From assembly GCA_000277545.1 (NCBI GenBank), contig AKXM01000040.1:1-64000 (forward strand): a DNA stretch of 64,000 nucleotides. The letters run 5' to 3'. Positions 31,167 through 64,000 of this stretch are shown here, in pieces. The notes under the pieces are model-generated. The model did not search any database. It saw nothing but the letters and a program-made list of their open reading frames with translations, and was not told where the DNA came from. How positions within the stretch are numbered: the stretch's first letter is position 1; each line of letters begins with the position of its first letter. Source of the DNA: Enterobacter sp. Ag1 (GTDB lineage: Bacteria > Pseudomonadota > Gammaproteobacteria > Enterobacterales > Enterobacteriaceae). The position numbers and the translations under genes were made by a program.

Positions 31167-31224
31167 GCAGATAGCAAAAAGGCGCCTTTAGGGCGCCTTT
31201 CCACATTGGTGGGTCGTGCAGGAT
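31167..31224 (-). repeat. 58-bp direct repeat, proximal copy
   Basis: The copy attached to the intact tRNA-Lys. Its hairpin at about 31177-31200 (minus strand: AAAGGCGCCC TAAA GGCGCCTTTTT) lies just beyond the tRNA-Lys 3' end and works as the terminator of the tRNA transcript. Confidence 0.75.
31177..31201 (-). terminator. Terminator of the Val-Lys tRNA operon
   Basis: GC-rich stem GGCGCC with A/T extensions and a poly-T on the minus strand, 6 bases past the tRNA-Lys CCA. A second identical hairpin is at 31030-31054. Confidence 0.8.
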
Positions 31225-31282
31225 TCGAACCTGCGACCAATTGATTAAAAGTCAACTGCTCTACCAACTGAGCTAACGACCC
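31207..31282 (-). tRNA. lysV: tRNA-Lys (TTT)
   Basis: 76 bases with encoded CCA. Acceptor stem GGGTCGT/ACGACCC, D-arm AGCTCAGTTGGTAGAGC, anticodon loop with TTT (GACTTTTAATC) and T-loop GGTTCGAATCC. Last gene of the Val-Val-Val-Lys operon, as in E. coli valUXY-lysV. Confidence 0.98.
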
Positions 31283-31284
31283 GA

Positions 31285-31360
31285 TGGTGGGTGATGACGG
31301 GCTCGAACCGCCGACCCCCTCCGTGTAAAGGAGGTGCTCTACCAACTGAGCTAATCACCC
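31285..31360 (-). tRNA. tRNA-Val (TAC), copy 3 of 3
   Basis: 76 bases with CCA. Acceptor GGGTGAT/ATCACCC, anticodon TAC in CCTTTACACGG. This copy has C27-G43 at the top of the anticodon stem; the other two copies have T27-G43. Only two bases separate it from tRNA-Lys. Confidence 0.98.
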
Positions 31361-31393
31361 AAACTTCGGTACTGCTAATTTCATAAGAGGAGA

Positions 31394-31469
31394 TGGTGGG
31401 TGATGACGGGCTCGAACCGCCGACCCCCTCCGTGTAAAGGAGATGCTCTACCAACTGAGCTAATCACCC
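31394..31469 (-). tRNA. tRNA-Val (TAC), copy 2 of 3
   Basis: 76 bases with CCA; identical to the promoter-proximal copy, including the T27-G43 wobble pair in the anticodon stem. Confidence 0.98.
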
Positions 31470-31512
31470 ATCTCTAAATCTCTTACTTCACATTCCGGGT
31501 CACTCTAAAGAG

Positions 31513-31588
31513 TGGTGGGTGATGACGGGCTCGAACCGCCGACCCCCTCCGTGTAAAGGAGATGCTCTACCAACTGAGCTAATCACCC
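31513..31588 (-). tRNA. tRNA-Val (TAC), copy 1 of 3
   Basis: 76 bases with CCA, first gene of the tRNA operon. Anticodon TAC; T27-G43 wobble. The promoter is 18 bases upstream. Confidence 0.98.
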
Positions 31589-34307: not shown

Positions 34308-34383
<76 letters not shown>

Positions 34384-34429
34384 AATCTTCACCAGCAGAT
34401 TTGGTACCGTAAAATCAGCACCTGTCAGT

Positions 34430-34505
<76 letters not shown>

Positions 34506-52740: not shown

Positions 52741-53071
52741 TTCACATCGCTCCGCGCTGACGCGCATCTCAACAGGTACATAATAAGCTGAAGCCGCAAA
52801 CTGCTTTTAGGGTGCCGCTTCATCTGGTATTCGGAGGTAAAACCTTACCCGGACGGCGCTAATGTACTCCCAAATTAAAAATGAAAACAAGTGTCTCAAA
52901 ATTGTGACAGTTGTCTGTTTTTTGAACTTTAATTAGGTGTGGGTGATCCCTTATTTACTTCATTAAAAACATTAAGATATATCGCATTTTCAGTGATATT
53001 TTTTGTCTGAAAATAAGTATTTTTGCTTACGCTAAATTTTATTAATTTTTTTCGCTGAACAGGGGGGAAAG
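52741..53071. other. AT-rich gap between ypdK and the cupin gene
   Basis: 331 bases. The left half is the ypdK promoter side. From about 52860 the sequence becomes strongly AT-rich, quite unlike the GC-rich flanks, and ends in AACAGGGGGGAAAG, a strong ribosome site for the cupin gene. I see no gene or RNA here; it marks the start of the accessory block. Confidence 0.45.
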
Positions 53072-55795: not shown

Positions 55796-56031
55796 ACGCG
55801 TTTTGCGCTGCAGGCGGAGTGCGGGGTGACCGGCTCTCCGCGAACATTGTGGCTGGCGCTTTTTCCATCTCTGAAATTGCTTTCATTCGCTCTTCTTCTG
55901 TCTTTTATTATTAACAATACAATAACATTATATCTAACAAAATTGTGACAAGGCACAATATACATATAACTTAATATGTTTTATAAAATGTAGCTATTGC
56001 CTGCAACTATGCCCCCTAAAGAGAAAGACAT
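55796..56031 (+). other. Permease promoter region
   Basis: 236 bases, AT-rich from 55890. It holds a palindrome at 55961-55981 listed separately and ends with AAAGAGAAAGACAT ahead of the permease ATG. No gene. Confidence 0.45.
55961..55981. promoter_or_regulatory. Palindromic candidate operator upstream of the APC permease
   Basis: ACATAT-AACTTA-ATATGT is a perfect 6-6-6 inverted repeat, 52 bases before the permease start. It shares TACATA-N8-TATGTTT with the site at 59223-59243 in front of the aldehyde dehydrogenase gene. The most likely binding protein is the GntR/FCD regulator encoded between the two sites; this is inference. Confidence 0.5.
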
Positions 56032-57513
56032 ATGGAACAGACATCTGCTACAAAAAATACCGATTCCCTGCCGGAGAAGGGCCAGCAGTTCAACCGCTCC
56101 ATCGGCCTGGTGTCTAACTTTGCGCTCGGTTTTACCTACCTCTCGCCGTTGACCGCCGTGTATTCCCTGTTTGCGCTGGCGATAACCCTCGCCGGGCCGC
56201 CAGCCATCTGGTGGATCCTGATTGCCGCCTGCGGGCAGCTGCTGGTTGCCCTGGTGTTTGGCGAGGTGGCTTCGCAGTATCCCATCACCGGCGGGCTATA
56301 TCCGTGGGCCAGAAGGCTGTGGGGGAAGAAATACGCCTGGATTGCCGCGTGGATTTACCTCTGGGCGCTGGTGGTGACCATTACGTCTATCGTGGAATAC
56401 ACCTCCACCTTCGTCGCCTCGCTTTTTCATTACGGCGATACGCCAATTGCGATGCTGCTCACTTCCGTGGTGCTGCTCACCATCATGATGGGCGTCAACA
56501 TGTCCGGGACGAAAAACCTGGCGAGGGTCGCCCGCTTCGGCTTCTGGTGCGAAATTATCAGCGTGATTGCGCTCGGCATTTACCTGCTGATTTTCCACCG
56601 CAATCAGCCTTTCTCCGTGGTGTTTGACGCCATGGGCGCGCTGGCAAAAGACGGCAGCTACGGCACGGCCTTTATGTCGGCGTCGCTGATGGGGCTGTTT
56701 ATGTTCTTCGGCTTCGAAGCCTGCGGCAACGTGGCGGAAGAGGTGAAAAACCCGGGGCGTAAGATCCCGGTGGCGATGATCCTCAGTATCGTTTTCGGCG
56801 CGATCTCTGCGGTGATCTCCATTCTGGGTTACCTGCTGTCATCCCCGGATCTGATGAACATTGTGAACGGCAAAATAGCCGATCCGATCCCGGCGATTCT
56901 GAACGATGCGCTGGGCGAGAAGGGCGCCACGCTGTTTATCGTGATTGCCATTGTGGCGATGCTCTCCTGCATCCTGTCGCTTCAGGCCGCGCTGAGCCGC
57001 CTGATCTTCTCGTTCTCCCGCGACAAAATGCTGCCGGGCAGCGAGTGGATGGCGAAGATCTCGAAGCATAGCGTGCCGGACAACGCGATGTTGGTGAGCT
57101 GCCTGCTGCCGATGGTGATTTGCGTCTGGGTCTACTTCCAGCCGGATAACCTTGCTCGCATCACCGCGTTTGCCGTGATAGGGATATACGTCTCCTTCCA
57201 GATGGTGATTCTGGCCGCGCTGCGCCAGCGCTTTAAGGGCTGGAAGCCTGCGGGAGAATGGACGCTGGGGGCATGGGGCACGCTGGTGAATGTGCTGGCG
57301 CTGGCCTACGGTATCGGCGGGATCTGGCTGTTGGCCCAGCCTGCGGACAGCGCAACCTTTATTGACCGCTGGACGGTGCTGATTGGCCTGGCGTTGGTCA
57401 TCGGCTCGGGGCTGGTTTACATGACGATTGCCAGACCGTTCGGCCATTCTGATGCGCCTGAAAATGACGCCATTGAATACGCCAAACGGCTAAATCTTTC
57501 CCGCGAGTATTAA
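56032..57513 (+). CDS. APC-superfamily amino acid/amine permease
   Basis: 493 residues, about twelve transmembrane helices. It belongs to the APC amino acid-choline transporter type related to GABA/choline permeases: GFTYLSPLTAVYSLFALA in the first helix, GGLYPWARRLWGKKYAW, and FGFEACGNVAEEVKNPGRKIPVA in helix 6-7. The substrate is probably an amine or gamma-amino acid; GABA, putrescine or a related polyamine product would fit its neighbours. Followed by a terminator and convergent with the Cache-domain gene. Confidence 0.82.
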   Translation: MEQTSATKNTDSLPEKGQQFNRSIGLVSNFALGFTYLSPLTAVYSLFALAITLAGPPAIWWILIAACGQLLVALVFGEVASQYPITGGLYPWARRLWGKKYAWIAAWIYLWALVVTITSIVEYTSTFVASLFHYGDTPIAMLLTSVVLLTIMMGVNMSGTKNLARVARFGFWCEIISVIALGIYLLIFHRNQPFSVVFDAMGALAKDGSYGTAFMSASLMGLFMFFGFEACGNVAEEVKNPGRKIPVAMILSIVFGAISAVISILGYLLSSPDLMNIVNGKIADPIPAILNDALGEKGATLFIVIAIVAMLSCILSLQAALSRLIFSFSRDKMLPGSEWMAKISKHSVPDNAMLVSCLLPMVICVWVYFQPDNLARITAFAVIGIYVSFQMVILAALRQRFKGWKPAGEWTLGAWGTLVNVLALAYGIGGIWLLAQPADSATFIDRWTVLIGLALVIGSGLVYMTIARPFGHSDAPENDAIEYAKRLNLSREY

Positions 57514-57516
57514 TCC

Positions 57517-57539
57517 AAAGGGCCTTATGGCCCTTTTTT
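57517..57539 (+). terminator. Terminator after the permease gene
   Basis: AAGGGCC pairs with GGCCCTT around TTAT and runs into a T tract. Confidence 0.85.
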
Positions 57540-57561
57540 GTATGCATTTATCCACAGTATT

Positions 57562-57584
57562 AAAGGGTCTTATGACCCTTTTTT
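57562..57584 (-). terminator. Terminator overlapping the 3' end of the Cache-domain gene
   Basis: AAAGGGTC pairs with GACCCTTT around TTAT, a near copy of the hairpin at 57517. On the minus strand the last codons (Lys-Lys-Gly-Ser-stop) of the Cache gene lie inside the stem, so the gene ends within its own terminator. Confidence 0.75.
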
Positions 57585-58277
57585 AATAAGCTCATATAAC
57601 GTGCAGTATTCTGTGTTATAGACTTCAGCCGCCTCAGCGATATTCAGTAATTCACCCACGCGGTATTTAGGATAAGTAGAGAAAATAATCCGCTTATCTA
57701 AATTAGTCAGCATAACTCTGTGGTTATTGAACAGCGGAAGTAATTCTTCCTCGACTTCACTGACCAGCACATCAATTGCCGCCACGCCAATAAAACGCTG
57801 GTGCAAATAAACCGGCATCGCAGAGGTTAAGGTATAAGACGTATTACAAACGTAATCGACATAAGGGCCGTGAATATACGCCTGGCCGTTTTCCTGAGCA
57901 TCTTTAAACCACTCAAAGGTCCTGAAATCCAGCCGCTGCTGGGTGGCCTGATCCAGGTCGAGATTCACCTTTTTCACGCCGTCGGCCTTTTTGTACCACC
58001 ACTCCAGCAGCCAGTACTCTTTCTCTTCCGTGCTGCCTGCAATGTGGCTGGCAAAGCCAGAGCCTGAGCAATAAGGCGTTTCGTTCAGCGTCTCTTTGAT
58101 GTGTTCCTGGATGGCTCGCTTTACCGCGGGATCCAGCAGCAATTTATGATCGCCGCCGTGAAACGCTGCCAGCGTGGACTCAACCTGCCCGGCAAGCGCA
58201 ATGGTTGCCTGGATGGTGGTGGTAAGGATGTCGTCAATCTTACGGGTAAAAGGGATGAGGCTTGCAGGTACATTCAT
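57570..58277 (-). CDS. Soluble Cache (PDC) sensor-domain protein
   Basis: 235 residues. Central and C-terminal parts resemble the PDC/Cache fold of chemoreceptors and kinases: EWFKDAQENGQAYIHGPYVDY, TSYTLTSAMPVYLHQRFIGVAAIDVLVSEVEE, then a membrane-proximal subdomain ending with the tail NTEYCTLYELIK. Unlike usual Cache proteins it has no signal peptide, transmembrane helix or output domain, so it is a cytosolic ligand-binding module. It follows the GntR gene by 27 bases and is probably its co-transcribed partner. The ligand is likely an amine or amino acid by analogy with other dCache domains and by context; this is not shown. Confidence 0.7.
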   Translation of the reverse strand: MNVPASLIPFTRKIDDILTTTIQATIALAGQVESTLAAFHGGDHKLLLDPAVKRAIQEHIKETLNETPYCSGSGFASHIAGSTEEKEYWLLEWWYKKADGVKKVNLDLDQATQQRLDFRTFEWFKDAQENGQAYIHGPYVDYVCNTSYTLTSAMPVYLHQRFIGVAAIDVLVSEVEEELLPLFNNHRVMLTNLDKRIIFSTYPKYRVGELLNIAEAAEVYNTEYCTLYELIKKGS

Positions 58278-58304
58278 GGCGATGCCCGTGTTGTTGTGTC
58301 AGTT

Positions 58305-59024
58305 TTATTTATATTTTAATTTGCTTTCAATGAGATAGAAGGTGAAGGTGTCGATGAGTTGCGTGGCTAATCGCACCGCCTCCTGCTCGTGATGGGTTTC
58401 TAGCGCGGCGATCAATTCGGTATAAACATCAATCACTTCCCGATGAATGGCTTCATCACGGTAAAGAATGGCCACCAGTGAAGCCCATTCGGCCTGCAGC
58501 AGCAGTTCCTGGTTGGCAAGCCTTGCGGACTGAGAACTGGCGGAAAGTGCCAGCAGGCAGCGCATATCTGCCTGAGTTTTTAGCTCCGGCGTGCTGGCCG
58601 ATTTCAGCGCCTCAACAAACTCCTGTAGCCGGGTGATATCCGCGCTGGTCATGCGTCTGGAGGCCAGTTTGGCGCTGTGGCTAATTATGGCGCAATGCAT
58701 TTCGCCGAGGTCAGAAATATAGTCTGAGCTGATGGTCTTAAAAGGGTGGAGCGGCGTCTGAAATTCGCCGCTATTTTCGCAAACAAAGCTGCCGCCATTT
58801 CGCCCACGAACGGTGTGGATTAAATTATTCGCCCGCAGAGTATTTAAGGCTTCGCGTATTGTTATGTGGGAAACGCCCATCATTTTGGCAAGGTCGGCTT
58901 CATTAGGAAGCTGCTCATTTGCCTCAAGCAAACCAGTAATAATTGCATTTGAAAGCCGCTGCACAATTTGATCGGATCGACTTGCCTGTCCTATAGGTGC
59001 GAATATTACTGCGTGAGTAATCAT
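58305..59024 (-). CDS. GntR-family (FadR/FCD-type) transcription regulator
   Basis: 239 residues. The winged HTH is at about 18-82 (LPNEADLAKMMGVSHITIREALNTLRANNLIHTVRGRNGG), followed by an all-helical FCD-type effector domain (about 100-230). It is divergent from the aldehyde dehydrogenase gene and upstream of the Cache gene on its own strand, so it probably controls the whole cluster. The candidate operator is the palindrome found in front of the dehydrogenase and permease genes. Confidence 0.85.
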   Translation of the reverse strand: MITHAVIFAPIGQASRSDQIVQRLSNAIITGLLEANEQLPNEADLAKMMGVSHITIREALNTLRANNLIHTVRGRNGGSFVCENSGEFQTPLHPFKTISSDYISDLGEMHCAIISHSAKLASRRMTSADITRLQEFVEALKSASTPELKTQADMRCLLALSASSQSARLANQELLLQAEWASLVAILYRDEAIHREVIDVYTELIAALETHHEQEAVRLATQLIDTFTFYLIESKLKYK

Positions 59025-59260
59025 AGTGCTCTCTGATTAAAATTCCCTGAATCAACGGTTATTGATAGCACAGCCCGGGCCTTTAAGAAAGGCATCGACA
59101 GGCTACCAGAAACGGCGGTTTTCACCGCTTGCCCGGCATTGCAATGTAAAAATATTGTTAAATTGTGGGGTCGATCATGTTGCTATCAAGCGCAGATTGA
59201 AAAGTCGCCACTCAAAAGATATTACATAATATTGTTTATGTTTAATCTGAGGAAAAGGCG
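59025..59260. promoter_or_regulatory. Divergent regulator/aldehyde dehydrogenase promoter region
   Basis: 236 bases, AT-rich in 59140-59245. It holds the candidate operator at 59223-59243; GAGGAAAAGGCG forms the dehydrogenase ribosome site. A second AT-rich stretch with AAATATTGTTAAATTG lies at 59151-59166. Confidence 0.5.
59223..59243. promoter_or_regulatory. Palindromic candidate operator upstream of the aldehyde dehydrogenase
   Basis: ACATAA-TATTGT-TTATGT is a perfect 6-6-6 inverted repeat 19 bases ahead of the start codon, in a place where a bound repressor would block initiation. It shares 13 fixed bases (TACATA-N8-TATGTTT) with the permease site. Confidence 0.5.
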
Positions 59261-60688
59261 ATGCAAACCCTGAAGCATTTTATCAACGGGCACTATGTGG
59301 CGGGCCAGCCAGCCACATTGTTTGACCTGGTCAGCCCGGTCAACAGCGAGGTTTATGCGCAATCCCCTGACGGCGGCGCGGAAGAAGTTAACCAGGCTTA
59401 CGCGGCGGCAAAAGCGGCGTTCGCGGTATGGAAACATTCCCTGCCGTCCGAGCGGCAGCGTGCCTTGCTGAAGCTTGCCGATGAAATTGAACGTAATGCC
59501 GCGCGGATTGTGGAGGTGCAAAGTCAGGAAACGGGGCAGCTTAAACACTTTATCGAGCGCGATGAAATCGCGGCGTCCTGCGACGCTATCCGCTTCTTTG
59601 CCGGGGCGGCCCGTTGCCTTGAGGGGAAAGCTTCCGGGGAATATGCCGCCGGGTTTACCTCAACCATTCGCCGCGAACCGCTGGGGATTGTCGGGCAGGT
59701 GACGCCGTGGAACTACCCATTCATGATGGCCGTTTGGAAAATCGCTCCGGCGCTTGCGGCGGGCAACACCGTGGTGCTGAAACCGAGCGATACGACGCCT
59801 ATCAGCACGCTGATTCTGGCCGAAATTGCGGCACCTTTGTTCCCACAAGGCGCATTCAACGTGGTGCTGGGCAAAGCGGGGACGGGCTCGCTGGTGGTAT
59901 CCAACCCGGAAGCCTCGTTGGTGTCGATTACCGGTTCCGTTCGCGCCGGGCTGCAGGTTGCCGCCTCTGCTGCCGCCAACCTGACCAAAGCGCATCTCGA
60001 ATTGGGTGGCAAGGCGCCGGTGGTGGTGTTTGCCGATGCGGACATGAACAAAGCGGTCGAGGTGATTACCGCCGCCGGTTTCTCTAATGCCGGGCAGGAT
60101 TGCACCGCTGCCACGCGTATCATCGTTGAAGCCTCCGCCTACGACGCTTTCCTTGAAAAGCTGATTCAGAAAACCAAATCAATCACCTTCGGCGAGCCGG
60201 ACGATCGCGAGGCTTTGTATGGCGCCCTCAACAGCCGCAACCAGCTGGAGCAGGTGACGGGCTTTATTGAACGGCTGCCTGCCCATGCAAAAATTGAAAC
60301 CGGCGGCAAAAAGGGCGCGGGCCCCGGCTACTACTTTGAGCCGACGATCATTTCCGGGCTGAAGCAGCGCGATGAGGCCATCCAGCATGAAGTTTTTGGC
60401 CCGGTGATGACTATCCAGTCTTTCAGCAGCGAAGAAGAGGCGCTCAGCAGAGCCAACGACGTGGAATACGGCCTGGCGGCAAGCGTCTGGACCAGCAGCC
60501 ACAGCCGGGCGCAGCGCTTTAGCACCCGTCTCGATTTCGGCACCGTGTGGATCAACAACCATATCCCGCTGTGCGCGGAAATGCCCCATGGCGGATTTAA
60601 AAAGTCCGGCTACGGCAAAGACCTTTCGTCTTACTCCCTCGACGAATACACCCGCCTCAAACACATTATGTGCGATATCACTGAATAA
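59261..60688 (+). CDS. Aldehyde dehydrogenase, gamma-aminobutyraldehyde type
   Basis: 475 residues. NAD(P)-dependent aldehyde dehydrogenase with N151 (PWNYP), E247 (LELGGKAP) and the catalytic C281 (GQDCTAATR). It shares long blocks with E. coli PatD/YdcW, including FFAGAARCL-G-A-GEY and TS-IRR-PLG-V, so gamma-aminobutyraldehyde or a related aminoaldehyde is the probable substrate and GABA the product. PatD acts in putrescine breakdown. First gene of the rightward group; a SnoaL-like gene starts 11 bases downstream. Confidence 0.83.
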   Translation: MQTLKHFINGHYVAGQPATLFDLVSPVNSEVYAQSPDGGAEEVNQAYAAAKAAFAVWKHSLPSERQRALLKLADEIERNAARIVEVQSQETGQLKHFIERDEIAASCDAIRFFAGAARCLEGKASGEYAAGFTSTIRREPLGIVGQVTPWNYPFMMAVWKIAPALAAGNTVVLKPSDTTPISTLILAEIAAPLFPQGAFNVVLGKAGTGSLVVSNPEASLVSITGSVRAGLQVAASAAANLTKAHLELGGKAPVVVFADADMNKAVEVITAAGFSNAGQDCTAATRIIVEASAYDAFLEKLIQKTKSITFGEPDDREALYGALNSRNQLEQVTGFIERLPAHAKIETGGKKGAGPGYYFEPTIISGLKQRDEAIQHEVFGPVMTIQSFSSEEEALSRANDVEYGLAASVWTSSHSRAQRFSTRLDFGTVWINNHIPLCAEMPHGGFKKSGYGKDLSSYSLDEYTRLKHIMCDITE

Positions 60689-60699
60689 GGATCCCTGCG

Positions 60700-61173
60700 A
60701 TGAAAAGAGTTAATGCTGTTGCGCTGTCGCTGTTTTTCTTTTCAACCCTGGCGCTGGCCGAAAGCGCTCCGCTTTCCGTCGTGAAAAATTATATGGCCGC
60801 GTGGAATGCCCACCAGGCCGGGCAGGCGGCCCAGTATCTTGCCAGCGATATGGTTTATTACGACGCCGCCGTCGGCACACCGGTTGAAGGGAAAGAAAAA
60901 GCCGAGAAAGAGGTGATTGGCGCGTTTATTAAAGCGGTGCCGGACCTGCACTGGCAGATGACCAGCGAGCCGGTTTATAACCACGACACCATCGCTTTCC
61001 GCTGGACGTTCACCGGCACCAACAGCGGCGAGTGGGGCGGCAGCCCGGCAACCAACAACCCGATCAAGTTTGAAGGCGTGAGCTTTATCAAAGTCAGCCA
61101 CGGCAAAATTACCTGGCAGGGCGATTACTACGACTCGAAGAAACTCGACGAAGAGCTCAAACCTCGGCAATAG
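60700..61173 (+). CDS. Exported SnoaL-like (NTF2-fold) protein
   Basis: 157 residues. A Sec signal peptide (1-20, core VALSLFFFSTLALA) is followed by an NTF2/SnoaL-like domain: VVKNYMAAWNAHQAGQAAQYL, GAFIKAVPDLHWQM and WTFTGTNSGEWGG. Members include ester cyclases and ketosteroid isomerase-like proteins, but many have no known reaction. Here it is exported and sits between a cytosolic dehydrogenase and a periplasmic oxidoreductase, so an accessory or protective role in the periplasm is possible. Confidence 0.75.
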   Translation: MKRVNAVALSLFFFSTLALAESAPLSVVKNYMAAWNAHQAGQAAQYLASDMVYYDAAVGTPVEGKEKAEKEVIGAFIKAVPDLHWQMTSEPVYNHDTIAFRWTFTGTNSGEWGGSPATNNPIKFEGVSFIKVSHGKITWQGDYYDSKKLDEELKPRQ

Positions 61174-61304
61174 CACGCCGCTTACTGGTCGTTACCCGCG
61201 GGCGGCGCACCGGCAACCCGTTACCAGAAAAGACACTATAGTTAACAGGCTTATCGCGTAGCGAAGCGGCAGGGAGTTTGTTATCATTTGGTTAACAATA
61301 TGTC

Positions 61305-61421
61305 TATACCCTAAATAATTCGAGTTGCAGGAAGGCACCAAGGCCGTGAATCCTCAGGCGCATAGATAACTATGTGACTGATGCAGGTAACGCACATGCA
61401 ACTTGAAGTATGACGGGTATA
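61305..61421. repeat. MITE-like enterobacterial palindromic repeat
   Basis: 117 bases with 25-base imperfect terminal inverted repeats: TATACCC...GAGTTGCA at the left and TGCAACTT...GGGTATA at the right. The centre holds CATAGATAACTATG. The same type of element (ends GTTGCAGGAAGGC and TGCAACTTGAAGTATGACGG) is scattered through genomes of Enterobacterales, as I recall. Here it lies directly upstream of the FAD oxidoreductase gene and may carry or disrupt its promoter. Confidence 0.75.
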
Positions 61422-61445
61422 AAGGACTGATAAAAAAGGTTATCT

Positions 61446-63350
61446 ATGTCTATTACCCGACGTGACTTTCTTAACGGGATGGCAATTGCAATTGTCTCTG
61501 GTTTAACGCCTCTGGAACTGGTGAGGGCAAACGGCAAAGCATCCGGCAGCGCCGTGATAAATGCAGATTACTACCCGCCGGGGCTAACTGGTCTGCGCGG
61601 CAACCACCCTGGCTCGTTCGAAATGGCGCACGCCCTTGGGCGCGAGCACGAAAAATTCGACTTCGGTAAGCTGCCGGTAGAAGAAGAGTACGACCTGGTG
61701 GTGGTTGGAGGCGGGATCAGCGGCCTGGCGGCAGCCTGCTTCTGGCGCGAAAAAATGGGGAAGGAGGCCAAAATCCTGATCCTCGACAACCATGACGACT
61801 TCGGCGGGCACGCCAAGCGCAACCAGTTCAACGTCGGCGGCAAAACGCTGCTGGGCTACGGCGGCAGCGAATCATTCCAGTCGCCGAACAGCAACTTCAG
61901 CCCGGTGGTTCACGGCCTGATGGATTCCCTGGGCGTCAGCATCACGCGAATGAAAAGCAGCTTTGACGCTACTTTCTACCCGGACCAGAACCTGAGCCGC
62001 GGCGTGTTCTTCGACAAAAAGAACTTCGGTGAAACCAAAATCGTCAGCGGCGACCCAGGTCGCGCGGTGTCGGACGATATTCCGCCGGACAGGCTCAATG
62101 GCCGCAGCATCGAAGCCTTTATCAATGACTTCCCGCTGAGCGAGGCAGACCGCAAGGCGCTGCTGGATCTGCACGTCAACCCTGCCGATTACCTGCCGGG
62201 CATGACGGTCGAGCAGAAAAGTGAATGGCTGGATGTCCACAGCTATCATGAGTTCCTCGAGCAGAAAGTCGGCTTAAGCAAAATGGCGCTGATGTACTTC
62301 CAGCAGCGTACCAACGACTTTTTTGCCATCGGGATTGAAGGCGTGAGCTGCAGCGACGCGCGCGCCTGTGCGCTGCCGGGCATGGAGGCAATGGGGTTGC
62401 CGCCGCTGGATGGCGAAGCGCTGGCCGACCTTGAAGAGCCGTACACCTACCACTTCCCGGACGGCAACGCCGGGCTGACGCGCCTGATGGTGCGAAAACT
62501 GATTCCTGACGCGCTGCCGGGCAGTACGATGGAAGATTCCGTCACCGCAAGGCTGCACTACGAGCTGCTGGACAGGCCGGAAAACGGTACCCGCATTCGG
62601 CTCAACAGCAGCGTGATTAACGCCGCCAATGCCGATAACGGCGTGGTGGTGAGCTATATCAACAATCAGAGCGGCAAGCTGCACCGCGTGAAGAGCCGCA
62701 ACGCCATTATGGCGGGCTACAATATGATGATCCCGTACATCGTGCCGGAGGCACCGGAGCAGCAGAAAGAAGATCTGCGCCTCAACGTCAAAGCGCCGCT
62801 GGTCTACACCAACGTGGTGGTCAACAACTGGCGTGCTTTCAAAAACACCGGCGTGCATGAATTCTATTCCCCGGCAGCACCGTACAGCCGCGTGAAGCTT
62901 GATTACCCGGTCAGCATGGGCGACTACCATCACCCGCAAACGCCGGACGACCCGATGTGTATCCACATGGTGTATGTGCCGACTTATCCGGGCAGCAACA
63001 TGTCTCCGCGCGAGCAGTTTCGCCGGGGCCGTGCATTCCTGCTCGGTTCTTCCTTTGAAGCCCATGAGCAGATGATCCGCTCTCAGCTGCAGGAGATGCT
63101 GGGCCACACTGGCTTTGACCACGAACGCGATATTGCGGCCATCACGGTCAACCGCTGGGCGCACGGCTATGCCTACTATGCTAACGCCCTGAGCGATGAC
63201 ATGGAGAAAATGCCGGAAATTATCAACCGTGCCCGCCAGCCGATAGGCCGCATCACGATTGCTAACTCTGACTCAGACTGGAGCGCTTACGCCCACGCGG
63301 CTATCGACCAGGCATGGCGTGCGGTCAACGAACTTGTGGCGATGGGGTAA
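61446..63350 (+). CDS. Tat-exported FAD oxidoreductase, spermidine dehydrogenase-like
   Basis: 634 residues. N-terminal Tat signal ITRRDFLNGMAIAIVSGL. The FAD-binding Rossmann motif is VVVGGGISGLAAA (G88-G93) with the ribose-contact acid in LILDNHDDFGGHAKR near 115. The opening YYPPGLTGLRGNHPGSFEMAHAL and the overall length resemble SpdH, the FAD/haem spermidine dehydrogenase known from Citrobacter freundii and Pseudomonas aeruginosa, which gives 1,3-diaminopropane and 4-aminobutyraldehyde. The neighbouring aminoaldehyde dehydrogenase supports this. Other amines remain possible. The cytochrome c gene follows after 7 bases. Confidence 0.65.
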   Translation: MSITRRDFLNGMAIAIVSGLTPLELVRANGKASGSAVINADYYPPGLTGLRGNHPGSFEMAHALGREHEKFDFGKLPVEEEYDLVVVGGGISGLAAACFWREKMGKEAKILILDNHDDFGGHAKRNQFNVGGKTLLGYGGSESFQSPNSNFSPVVHGLMDSLGVSITRMKSSFDATFYPDQNLSRGVFFDKKNFGETKIVSGDPGRAVSDDIPPDRLNGRSIEAFINDFPLSEADRKALLDLHVNPADYLPGMTVEQKSEWLDVHSYHEFLEQKVGLSKMALMYFQQRTNDFFAIGIEGVSCSDARACALPGMEAMGLPPLDGEALADLEEPYTYHFPDGNAGLTRLMVRKLIPDALPGSTMEDSVTARLHYELLDRPENGTRIRLNSSVINAANADNGVVVSYINNQSGKLHRVKSRNAIMAGYNMMIPYIVPEAPEQQKEDLRLNVKAPLVYTNVVVNNWRAFKNTGVHEFYSPAAPYSRVKLDYPVSMGDYHHPQTPDDPMCIHMVYVPTYPGSNMSPREQFRRGRAFLLGSSFEAHEQMIRSQLQEMLGHTGFDHERDIAAITVNRWAHGYAYYANALSDDMEKMPEIINRARQPIGRITIANSDSDWSAYAHAAIDQAWRAVNELVAMG

Positions 63351-63357
63351 CCAGGAA

Positions 63358-64000
63358 ATGAAACGTATTTTAGCGGCTATCTCGATCCTCTTTTCTGCCA
63401 GCGGCTACGCTGCCGTATCGCAAGGTGAGTATGTGGCGCGCGCGTCAGACTGCGTCGCCTGCCACACCGTAGACGGCGGCCAGCCGATGGCCGGAGGCAA
63501 AAAGTTTTCTACGCCGGTGGGGGATATCTACTCCACCAACATCACGCCGGACAAAACCCACGGCATTGGCGATTACAGCTACGAAGATTTCGAGAAGGCG
63601 GTTCGCCAGGGGATAGCCAAAGATGGTCACGCCCTTTACCCGGCGATGCCTTATCCTTCCTACGCCAAAATGACCGATGAAGACGTGAAGGCGCTGTACG
63701 ACTACTTTATGAAGGACGTTGCCCCGGCGGCGACCGCCAATAAAGAGAATGATATTCCGCTGCTGCTGTCGGCCCGCTGGCCGCTGCGCGTGTGGAACGG
63801 CCTGTTCGTGGATGACGTGAAATCCGGCGGTGTGGTGGTTGAGGCCCGCGGGGATAACGCGGAGAAAATTAAACGTGGGGCTTATCTGGTGCAGGGGCCG
63901 GGCCACTGCGGCGCCTGCCATACTCCACGCGGCATGGCGATGCAGGAGAAAGGCTACGATGATTCCAGCCCGGAATTCCTGAGCGGGGCGATGATCGACG
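63358..64000 (+). CDS. Exported multihaem cytochrome c (cut by window end)
   Basis: At least 214 residues, open to the window end. Signal peptide 1-19 (ILAAISILFSASGYAA). Two haem c sites are visible: C32-V-A-C35-H36 and C184-G-A-C187-H188, with a probable axial methionine in YPAMPYPSYAKM near 97. The spacing matches the cytochrome c subunits of membrane-bound gluconate, sorbitol and alcohol dehydrogenases, which carry three haems; a third site would lie beyond the window. It begins 7 bases after the flavoprotein gene and is the likely electron acceptor for it, passing electrons to quinone. Confidence 0.88.
   Translation, partial: MKRILAAISILFSASGYAAVSQGEYVARASDCVACHTVDGGQPMAGGKKFSTPVGDIYSTNITPDKTHGIGDYSYEDFEKAVRQGIAKDGHALYPAMPYPSYAKMTDEDVKALYDYFMKDVAPAATANKENDIPLLLSARWPLRVWNGLFVDDVKSGGVVVEARGDNAEKIKRGAYLVQGPGHCGACHTPRGMAMQEKGYDDSSPEFLSGAMID

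Follow-up and report, generated by a model that had tools for sequence, protein, structure and literature searches.

The window, by which we mean the whole stretch of 64,000 nucleotides of Enterobacter sp. Ag1 that was analysed, carries at its end a group of seven adjacent genes, all seven of which are present as reading frames where the initial annotation had placed them (Table 1). The families that it had named were likewise recovered, namely AA_permease_2, a dCache/MCP-like PDC domain, GntR plus FCD, Aldedh, SnoaL, SpdH, and cytochrome c. The last gene, described there as encoding an exported cytochrome c, keeps its family but not its extent; it runs from 63358 to 64560, ending on the contig beyond the window, and its complete product is a triheme protein of 400 aa. 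Given the gene strands, the layout suggests three transcription blocks: the permease gene (+), GntR-Cache (−), in which the GntR/FCD gene lies in tandem with the Cache gene and ahead of it in transcription, and ALDH-SnoaL-SpdH-cytochrome (+), ALDH being the aldehyde dehydrogenase. Among the NCBIfam models, the Cache protein has no match, the regulator, SnoaL, and SpdH have none above cut-off, and the permease matches only below cut-off.

Table 1 Features of the island and its predicted control sites, in contig positions.
Feature	Position	Strand	Basis
Predicted operator before permease gene, ATATAACTTAATATGTTTTAT	55964..55984	+	Phylogenetic footprint
Permease (APC superfamily)	56032..57513	+	PF13520 163.7 bits, PF00324 120.5 bits
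Cache protein (stand-alone dCache domain)	57570..58277	-	PF22673 above cut-off, PF02743 below
GntR/FCD regulator	58305..59024	-	PF00392 59.2 and PF07729 34.4 bits, both above cut-off
Predicted operator, GntR/ALDH divergent promoter, ATATTACATAATATTGTTTAT	59219..59239	+	Phylogenetic footprint
ALDH (PatD-like aminobutyraldehyde dehydrogenase)	59261..60688	+	NF010000 644.7 bits (cut-off 615)
SnoaL-like protein, predicted exported	60700..61173	+	PF07366 75.3 bits; signal peptide by eye
spdH (predicted Tat-exported FAD/heme b spermidine dehydrogenase)	61446..63350	+	PaSpdH 7d9f, E = 1.3e-227
Triheme cytochrome c gene	63358..64560 (first 214 codons to 64000)	+	Three CxxCH; 8gy2_B

The next frame downstream of the cytochrome gene, of 232 aa and presumably a pseudouridine synthase, is, in our set, the same neighbor only within the genus (own locus and L115-L118) and lies outside the island. 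Between the SnoaL-like gene and spdH there is a gap of 272 bp (window 61174-61445), which measures 289 bp in L115, 164 bp in L116, and 157 bp in L117; a sequence inside it matches five places of the genome at ≤2 mismatches, which would look like the insertion of a small dispersed repeat into the operon, and a search of the gap for inverted repeats found none. Elsewhere in the window, six tRNA genes lie in two clusters (31210-31588 and 34308-34502).

The FAD enzyme is by homology a spermidine dehydrogenase. Its best match among the solved structures in the PDB is PaSpdH (7d9f, 760 bits), with residues 1-630 of the query aligned to residues 1-619 of the chain, and the next family, monoamine oxidase A, reaches 24 bits. 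This profile check upheld the earlier reading of an SpdH-like FAD enzyme, and by the same wide margin a non-amine flavoenzyme was ruled out. Identity of the window protein is 79% to the homolog from Citrobacter braakii, 65% to one from Serratia, and 55% to one from Pseudomonas. The heme-b ligands of PaSpdH are given as H54 and H562 in the accessible text of PMC12564564, and via the alignment with the PaSpdH chain they map to H62 and H573, with His at both positions in all 103 aligned rows, a set that includes near-duplicates of one species. At the N-terminus lies the Tat motif TRRDFL; the Tat pattern occurs in 87 of the 103 rows, and in most of the remaining 16 either the residues flanking RR differ or the start is doubtful. 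Asp291 is Asp in 82/103 rows, and the 7d9i chain has Ala at the counterpart position. On a Serratia proteamaculans plasmid (L005:6001-7632), a FAD oxidoreductase 26% identical to the window enzyme appears to be a distant SpdH relative with another role, its neighbors being annotated as ketoacyl synthases, an acyl carrier protein, and an aminotransferase.

The enzyme class itself is old, dating from 1970 for Serratia, 1992 for Citrobacter, and 2006 for Pseudomonas. The original papers are reportedly Tabor 1970, Hisano 1992, Dasu 2006, and Che 2021; the C. freundii enzyme of 1992 is reported to be membrane-bound. According to the accessible parts of two later papers, SpdH has been purified from Serratia marcescens, Citrobacter freundii, and P. 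aeruginosa (PMC12564564, PMC7576179), its products are 1,3-diaminopropane and 4-aminobutanal or 1-pyrroline (PMC7576179, PMC12564564), and the purified C. freundii enzyme oxidises spermidine while PaSpdH accepts spermine too (PMC7576179). By homology, spermidine would thus be the substrate of the window enzyme as well.

By sequence similarity, the cytochrome groups with the c-type subunits of membrane dehydrogenases that act on alcohol, glucose, or fructose. Its best PDB relatives are the c subunits of an alcohol (8gy2_B, E = 7.7e-104), a glucose (8hdd_B), another alcohol (9x0q_B), and a fructose dehydrogenase (7w2j_C), and it aligns over residues 16-394 of 399 with 8gy2_B, the subunit of the membrane alcohol dehydrogenase. 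Triheme subunits of such dehydrogenases reduce ubiquinone, and their C-terminal extension is the membrane anchor. Past the aligned end, this extension comprises 43-55 residues in 8gy2, 8hdd, 9x0q, and 7w2j and 19 in 8gy3_A, whereas the window cytochrome lacks it and stops near the last aligned residue; reduction of quinone by this protein is therefore not assured. No hydrophobic stretch occurs in its last 60 residues, where the best 19-residue hydropathy mean is 0.07. A hydrophobic C-terminal segment is absent in 57 of 59 cytochrome rows, a set in which our own locus appears twice and near-duplicates were kept. As to the other two, L087 is a 169-aa partial match, and L066, from a Neisseriaceae MAG, is the only SpdH-linked cytochrome of the 59 rows that has the segment. 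Some 10 kb downstream of the triheme cytochrome gene, possibly by chance, lie what we take to be the cytochrome c maturation (ccm) genes (L002:13542-18911; contig C40, about 74541-79910).

To follow the gene pair and the island across the family, we surveyed 392 genomes, accepting SpdH at E ≤ 1e-100. SpdH is present in 52 of them, and we inspected the surroundings of all 52 loci, our own included. The triheme cytochrome gene directly follows spdH in 52/52. The island, GntR-Cache-ALDH-spdH-cytochrome, is found at 17 of these 52 loci (own locus included), with the SnoaL-like gene in 13 of the 17 and missing from four, and with the permease gene in view in 16; the contig of L125 stops short of where this gene would lie. 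Another 17 loci have an ALDH gene of 46-50% identity within ~8 kb upstream of spdH, and at the remaining 18 nothing of the island is visible beyond spdH and the cytochrome gene; two of these 18 (L157 and L162) are cut off upstream. The pair therefore also works without the rest of the island, and it stands without the island on a Duffyella plasmid as well. We further sampled named loci, taking the best 80 of at least 529 confirmed candidates, so that the fractions lean to close relatives. Among these best 80, the spdH-cytochrome pair occurs in 35 and the island in 10: four Citrobacter, three Buttiauxella, Enterobacter ludwigii, and two other Enterobacteriaceae, one of the ten loci (L044) lacking the permease at a contig end. 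The remaining 45 of the best 80 have no triheme cytochrome gene next to spdH; 42 of them fall below 53% SpdH identity, including L072, for which only 232 bases behind spdH are known, and three at 53-62%. The pair-less loci of this sample include Campylobacter, Helicobacter, and Acidobacteria at 42-55% and Aeromonas diversa at 62%.

These counts agree with the expectation of the initial annotation that the genes would be found together elsewhere. Because the island is conserved in other genera, it is more than a chance neighborhood, an explanation that we could thus rule out. A recent mobile element was also rejected as the main story, the gene order being the same in several genera and the base composition of the region lying inside the range of the window. 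The set had also been described as absent from this locus in E. coli; in nucleotide searches of 20,395 E. coli records, neither the island nor the ALDH gene had a match in 'near' mode and spdH had none in the more sensitive 'distant' mode.

Other arrangements of spdH bring in related partners. In Serratia bockelmannii (L048), the order is ABC-type genes, two ABC permease genes (PF00528), PatD, spdH, and the cytochrome gene; by eye, the first genes look like those of a periplasmic binding protein and an ABC ATPase, and the PatD protein scores above the TIGR03374 cut-off (953.9 vs 909.3). Three Commensalibacter loci (L049, L051, and L067) encode an SpdH 64-65% and a cytochrome 51-53% identical to the island proteins, together with an ALDH 67-69% identical to that of the window, whose gene begins 3.3-7.1 kb beyond the start of spdH. 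In all three, a 257-aa frame follows the ALDH gene, and it is SnoaL-like in both loci tested; its similarity to the island SnoaL (18% over 98 residues, E = 0.017) is a fold-level link at most. In L051 the ALDH gene is also followed by a GABA-transaminase-like gene that scores just below cut-off (505.7 vs 506.65). Thus spdH is accompanied by an aminobutyraldehyde dehydrogenase gene in three contexts, and the ALDH gene by a SnoaL-like one in two. SpdH, the triheme cytochrome, and ALDH of Commensalibacter are much nearer to the enterobacterial ones than is other alphaproteobacterial SpdH in the set, suggesting that the three genes may have been transferred together. In Aeromonas bestiarum (L064), the spdH-cytochrome pair adjoins the quinol oxidase genes cyoA and cyoB.

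The earlier assignment of the dehydrogenase as PatD-like stood the comparison with subfamily models, although at one level only: ALDH lies above the NF010000 cut-off and below that of the equivalog TIGR03374 (516.8 vs 909.3). Its best PDB rows are 1wnb and 6c43, and its nearest paralog in the same genome is 47% identical. A GABA transaminase, GabT, scores over cut-off elsewhere in the genome (C32). The permease is predicted to import an SpdH product, GABA, or a polyamine. The SnoaL-like protein has only weak relatives in the PDB and may act in the same pathway.

The two plus-strand blocks appear to share a control site. Aligned promoters contain a conserved block of about ATATnACnTAATATnnTTTAT before the permease gene and before the ALDH operon, and the copy in the Buttiauxella permease promoter is a nearly perfect palindrome. 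At ≤3 mismatches, a 27-base pattern made from both window sites matches only these two places in the 4.75 Mb genome, its reverse matches none, and a symmetric 21-base pattern returns the same two. Within the window, a looser 21-base pattern matches both operators and a third place at 52962, the latter with 3 mismatches. Across the 17 family islands, the looser pattern at ≤3 mismatches precedes 16 of the 16 permease genes in view and 15 of the 17 ALDH genes, missing those of L119 and L164, and it occurs in 3 of the 35 non-island loci, always with 3 mismatches. Since the patterns were derived from the sites themselves or from their kin, what speaks for them is their occurrence in other genera, together with the lack of further sites. 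We infer that GntR binds these near-palindromic sites, and the shared operator type probably makes the island a regulon.

The Cache protein is probably cytosolic, because by eye it has neither a signal peptide nor a hydrophobic start. Alignment with chemoreceptor domains shows the aromatic pair W123/F124 to be retained, along with Y139, D141, and D169. Where amino-acid sensors have their carboxylate-binding Arg, it has F121 (placed by eye), and the surrounding stretch RTFEWF is identical in 21/21 rows, near-duplicates included. In the accessible text of PMC10104139, the carboxylate-binding Arg is not conserved in amine-binding dCache domains; the amine motif of dCache_1AM comprises an aromatic pair, a cation-pi Tyr, and a terminal Asp, along with an R103/D133 insertion, and in Actinobacteria the gene for an intracellular dCache_1AM accompanies that for a transcription factor. 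The position of the amine-motif Tyr (Y206 of PctD) reads D141 in the Cache protein, the positions again being placed by eye, and membership in dCache_1AM is therefore not established. An amine-sensing role for the Cache protein is a prediction.

The respiratory inventory of the genome bears on where the electrons of SpdH might go. In our own genome, listed as 100% complete, no match was found to the proteobacterial Rieske protein of bc1, in a search whose controls gave a match in 10 of 14 genomes and only one over cut-off. The single COX1 match is CyoB, a quinol oxidase, so that among the proteins searched there is no cytochrome c oxidase to serve the cytochrome. In view of these two results, and by analogy with the family to which the cytochrome belongs, quinone is the most likely sink for electrons leaving the cytochrome, and a path from SpdH through the cytochrome to quinone may be drawn.

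As a plausible mechanism, SpdH would be exported folded by the Tat route and in the periplasm convert spermidine to 1,3-diaminopropane and 4-aminobutanal, the latter cyclising to 1-pyrroline. Electrons would pass from FAD to the surface heme b and on to the triheme cytochrome c, which would deliver them to the ubiquinone pool and thereby to the quinol oxidase. The APC permease would bring in an SpdH product, the PatD-like dehydrogenase would turn 4-aminobutanal into GABA, and GabT would channel GABA into central metabolism, while GntR/FCD and the cytosolic Cache amine sensor would govern both promoters via one near-palindromic operator type. We therefore regard the island as, probably, a real and conserved spermidine-to-GABA regulon. 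That it uses external spermidine (or spermine) as a source of nitrogen and electrons, by way of SpdH, cytochrome, and quinone and of the PatD-like step, under GntR/Cache control, is a reading that we hold with reasonable confidence. More tentatively, and with somewhat less than even confidence, we propose that SpdH and the anchorless triheme cytochrome form a dedicated periplasmic chain (FAD, heme b, and three heme c) to quinone in bacteria that have no cytochrome c oxidase, and that the whole set is switched by GntR, working with a Cache domain that has been relocated from the surface of the cell into the cytosol as a sensor of polyamine products.

The absence of the hydrophobic C-terminal segment from nearly all cytochrome rows (57/59) would suit a soluble carrier that serves a different acceptor in the periplasm, for example cytochrome c peroxidase or a reductase of nitrate or nitrite, in place of a quinone reductase. 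However, the near full-length alignment with the membrane alcohol dehydrogenase subunit (residues 16-394) and the cyoAB genes next to the pair in Aeromonas bestiarum both argue against such a carrier, which we consider rather unlikely. The substrate is open to a similar discussion, as SpdH might mainly oxidise spermine, an acetylated polyamine, norspermidine, or an unrelated amine, with the island serving that substrate. PaSpdH does take spermine (PMC7576179, accessible parts), the permease and ALDH families are broad, and among the best 80 of at least 529 candidates there are SpdH relatives at 42-55% identity without these partners, so that specificity may vary. The identity of the window enzyme to the Pseudomonas (55%) and the Citrobacter braakii (79%) homologs nevertheless speaks for spermidine, as does the activity of the purified C. 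freundii enzyme on it (PMC7576179, accessible parts), and the repeated linkage to aminobutyraldehyde dehydrogenase genes suits 4-aminobutanal as the product. Another main substrate thus seems improbable to us.

Still less probable, in our judgement, is a role in defence or signalling, in which external polyamines would be removed or GABA, diaminopropane, or an aldehyde would act as a signal. The patchy distribution of SpdH (52/392 genomes at E ≤ 1e-100) and the presence in the island of a Cache protein of its own are compatible with such a role, but a cytochrome that recovers the electrons, a permease, and enzymes that form and use GABA look catabolic, in keeping with the nutritional reading that we favor.

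The initial annotation had called the system uncharacterised. This holds for the gene set and the likely electron route, of which we found no description in the titles and abstract openings of the open-licence literature searched, but not for the enzyme, which the accessible parts of PMC12564564 and PMC7576179 report as already purified from three genera. What is new is the conserved unit, the anchorless triheme partner, and the likely regulon. Where these two papers in their accessible parts name acceptors for SpdH, they are assay acceptors (cytochrome c, ferricyanide, and DCIP) and an electrode, and a natural one is not named there. The co-encoded triheme cytochrome, present in 52/52 family loci, is a direct candidate for this natural electron acceptor. 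Should the dedicated chain prove true, an enzyme described as early as 1970 would gain a physiological partner. From the island one can further predict a way for Citrobacter-like bacteria to exploit polyamines outside the cell with no import beforehand, and on it the joint action of a GntR regulator and a cytosolic Cache sensor could be tested.

Several parts of the proposed system have a known counterpart from which they depart. The Cache protein resembles the Actinobacteria dCache_1AM proteins in standing alone, in having no signal peptide by eye, in adjoining a regulator gene, and in lacking an Arg at the carboxylate position; it differs in its enterobacterial host, its GntR/FCD partner, and an amine motif that, by our reading, is left incomplete by D141 in place of Tyr. 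With the PatD-type enzymes and the Serratia ABC transporter-PatD-spdH locus, the island ALDH shares the NF010000 subfamily model, but it forms a separate branch, 47-50% identical to the Serratia ALDHs and below the TIGR03374 cut-off. The cytochrome has the same three CxxCH motifs as the 8gy2, 8hdd, and 7w2j subunits and aligns with them over nearly its full length, whereas their last 43-55 residues have no counterpart in it and its partner in the island is a FAD/heme-b amine dehydrogenase. A review places spermidine dehydrogenase (EC 1.5.99.6) among the membrane-associated flavoenzymes with a c-type cytochrome, beside gluconate 2-dehydrogenase, and its subclass entry, in the accessible text, gives no gene, subunit, or heme number (PMC6472588). 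The SpdH of the island is like PaSpdH (7d9f-7d9j) and the Serratia marcescens and Citrobacter freundii enzymes in its full-length homology, its Tat-type N-terminus, and both heme-b histidines. These known enzymes are treated as stand-alone, working with cytochrome c, ferricyanide, and DCIP as acceptors (PMC12564564, accessible parts); the SpdH of the island, unlike them, is paired with a triheme cytochrome of its own and with a catabolic gene set.
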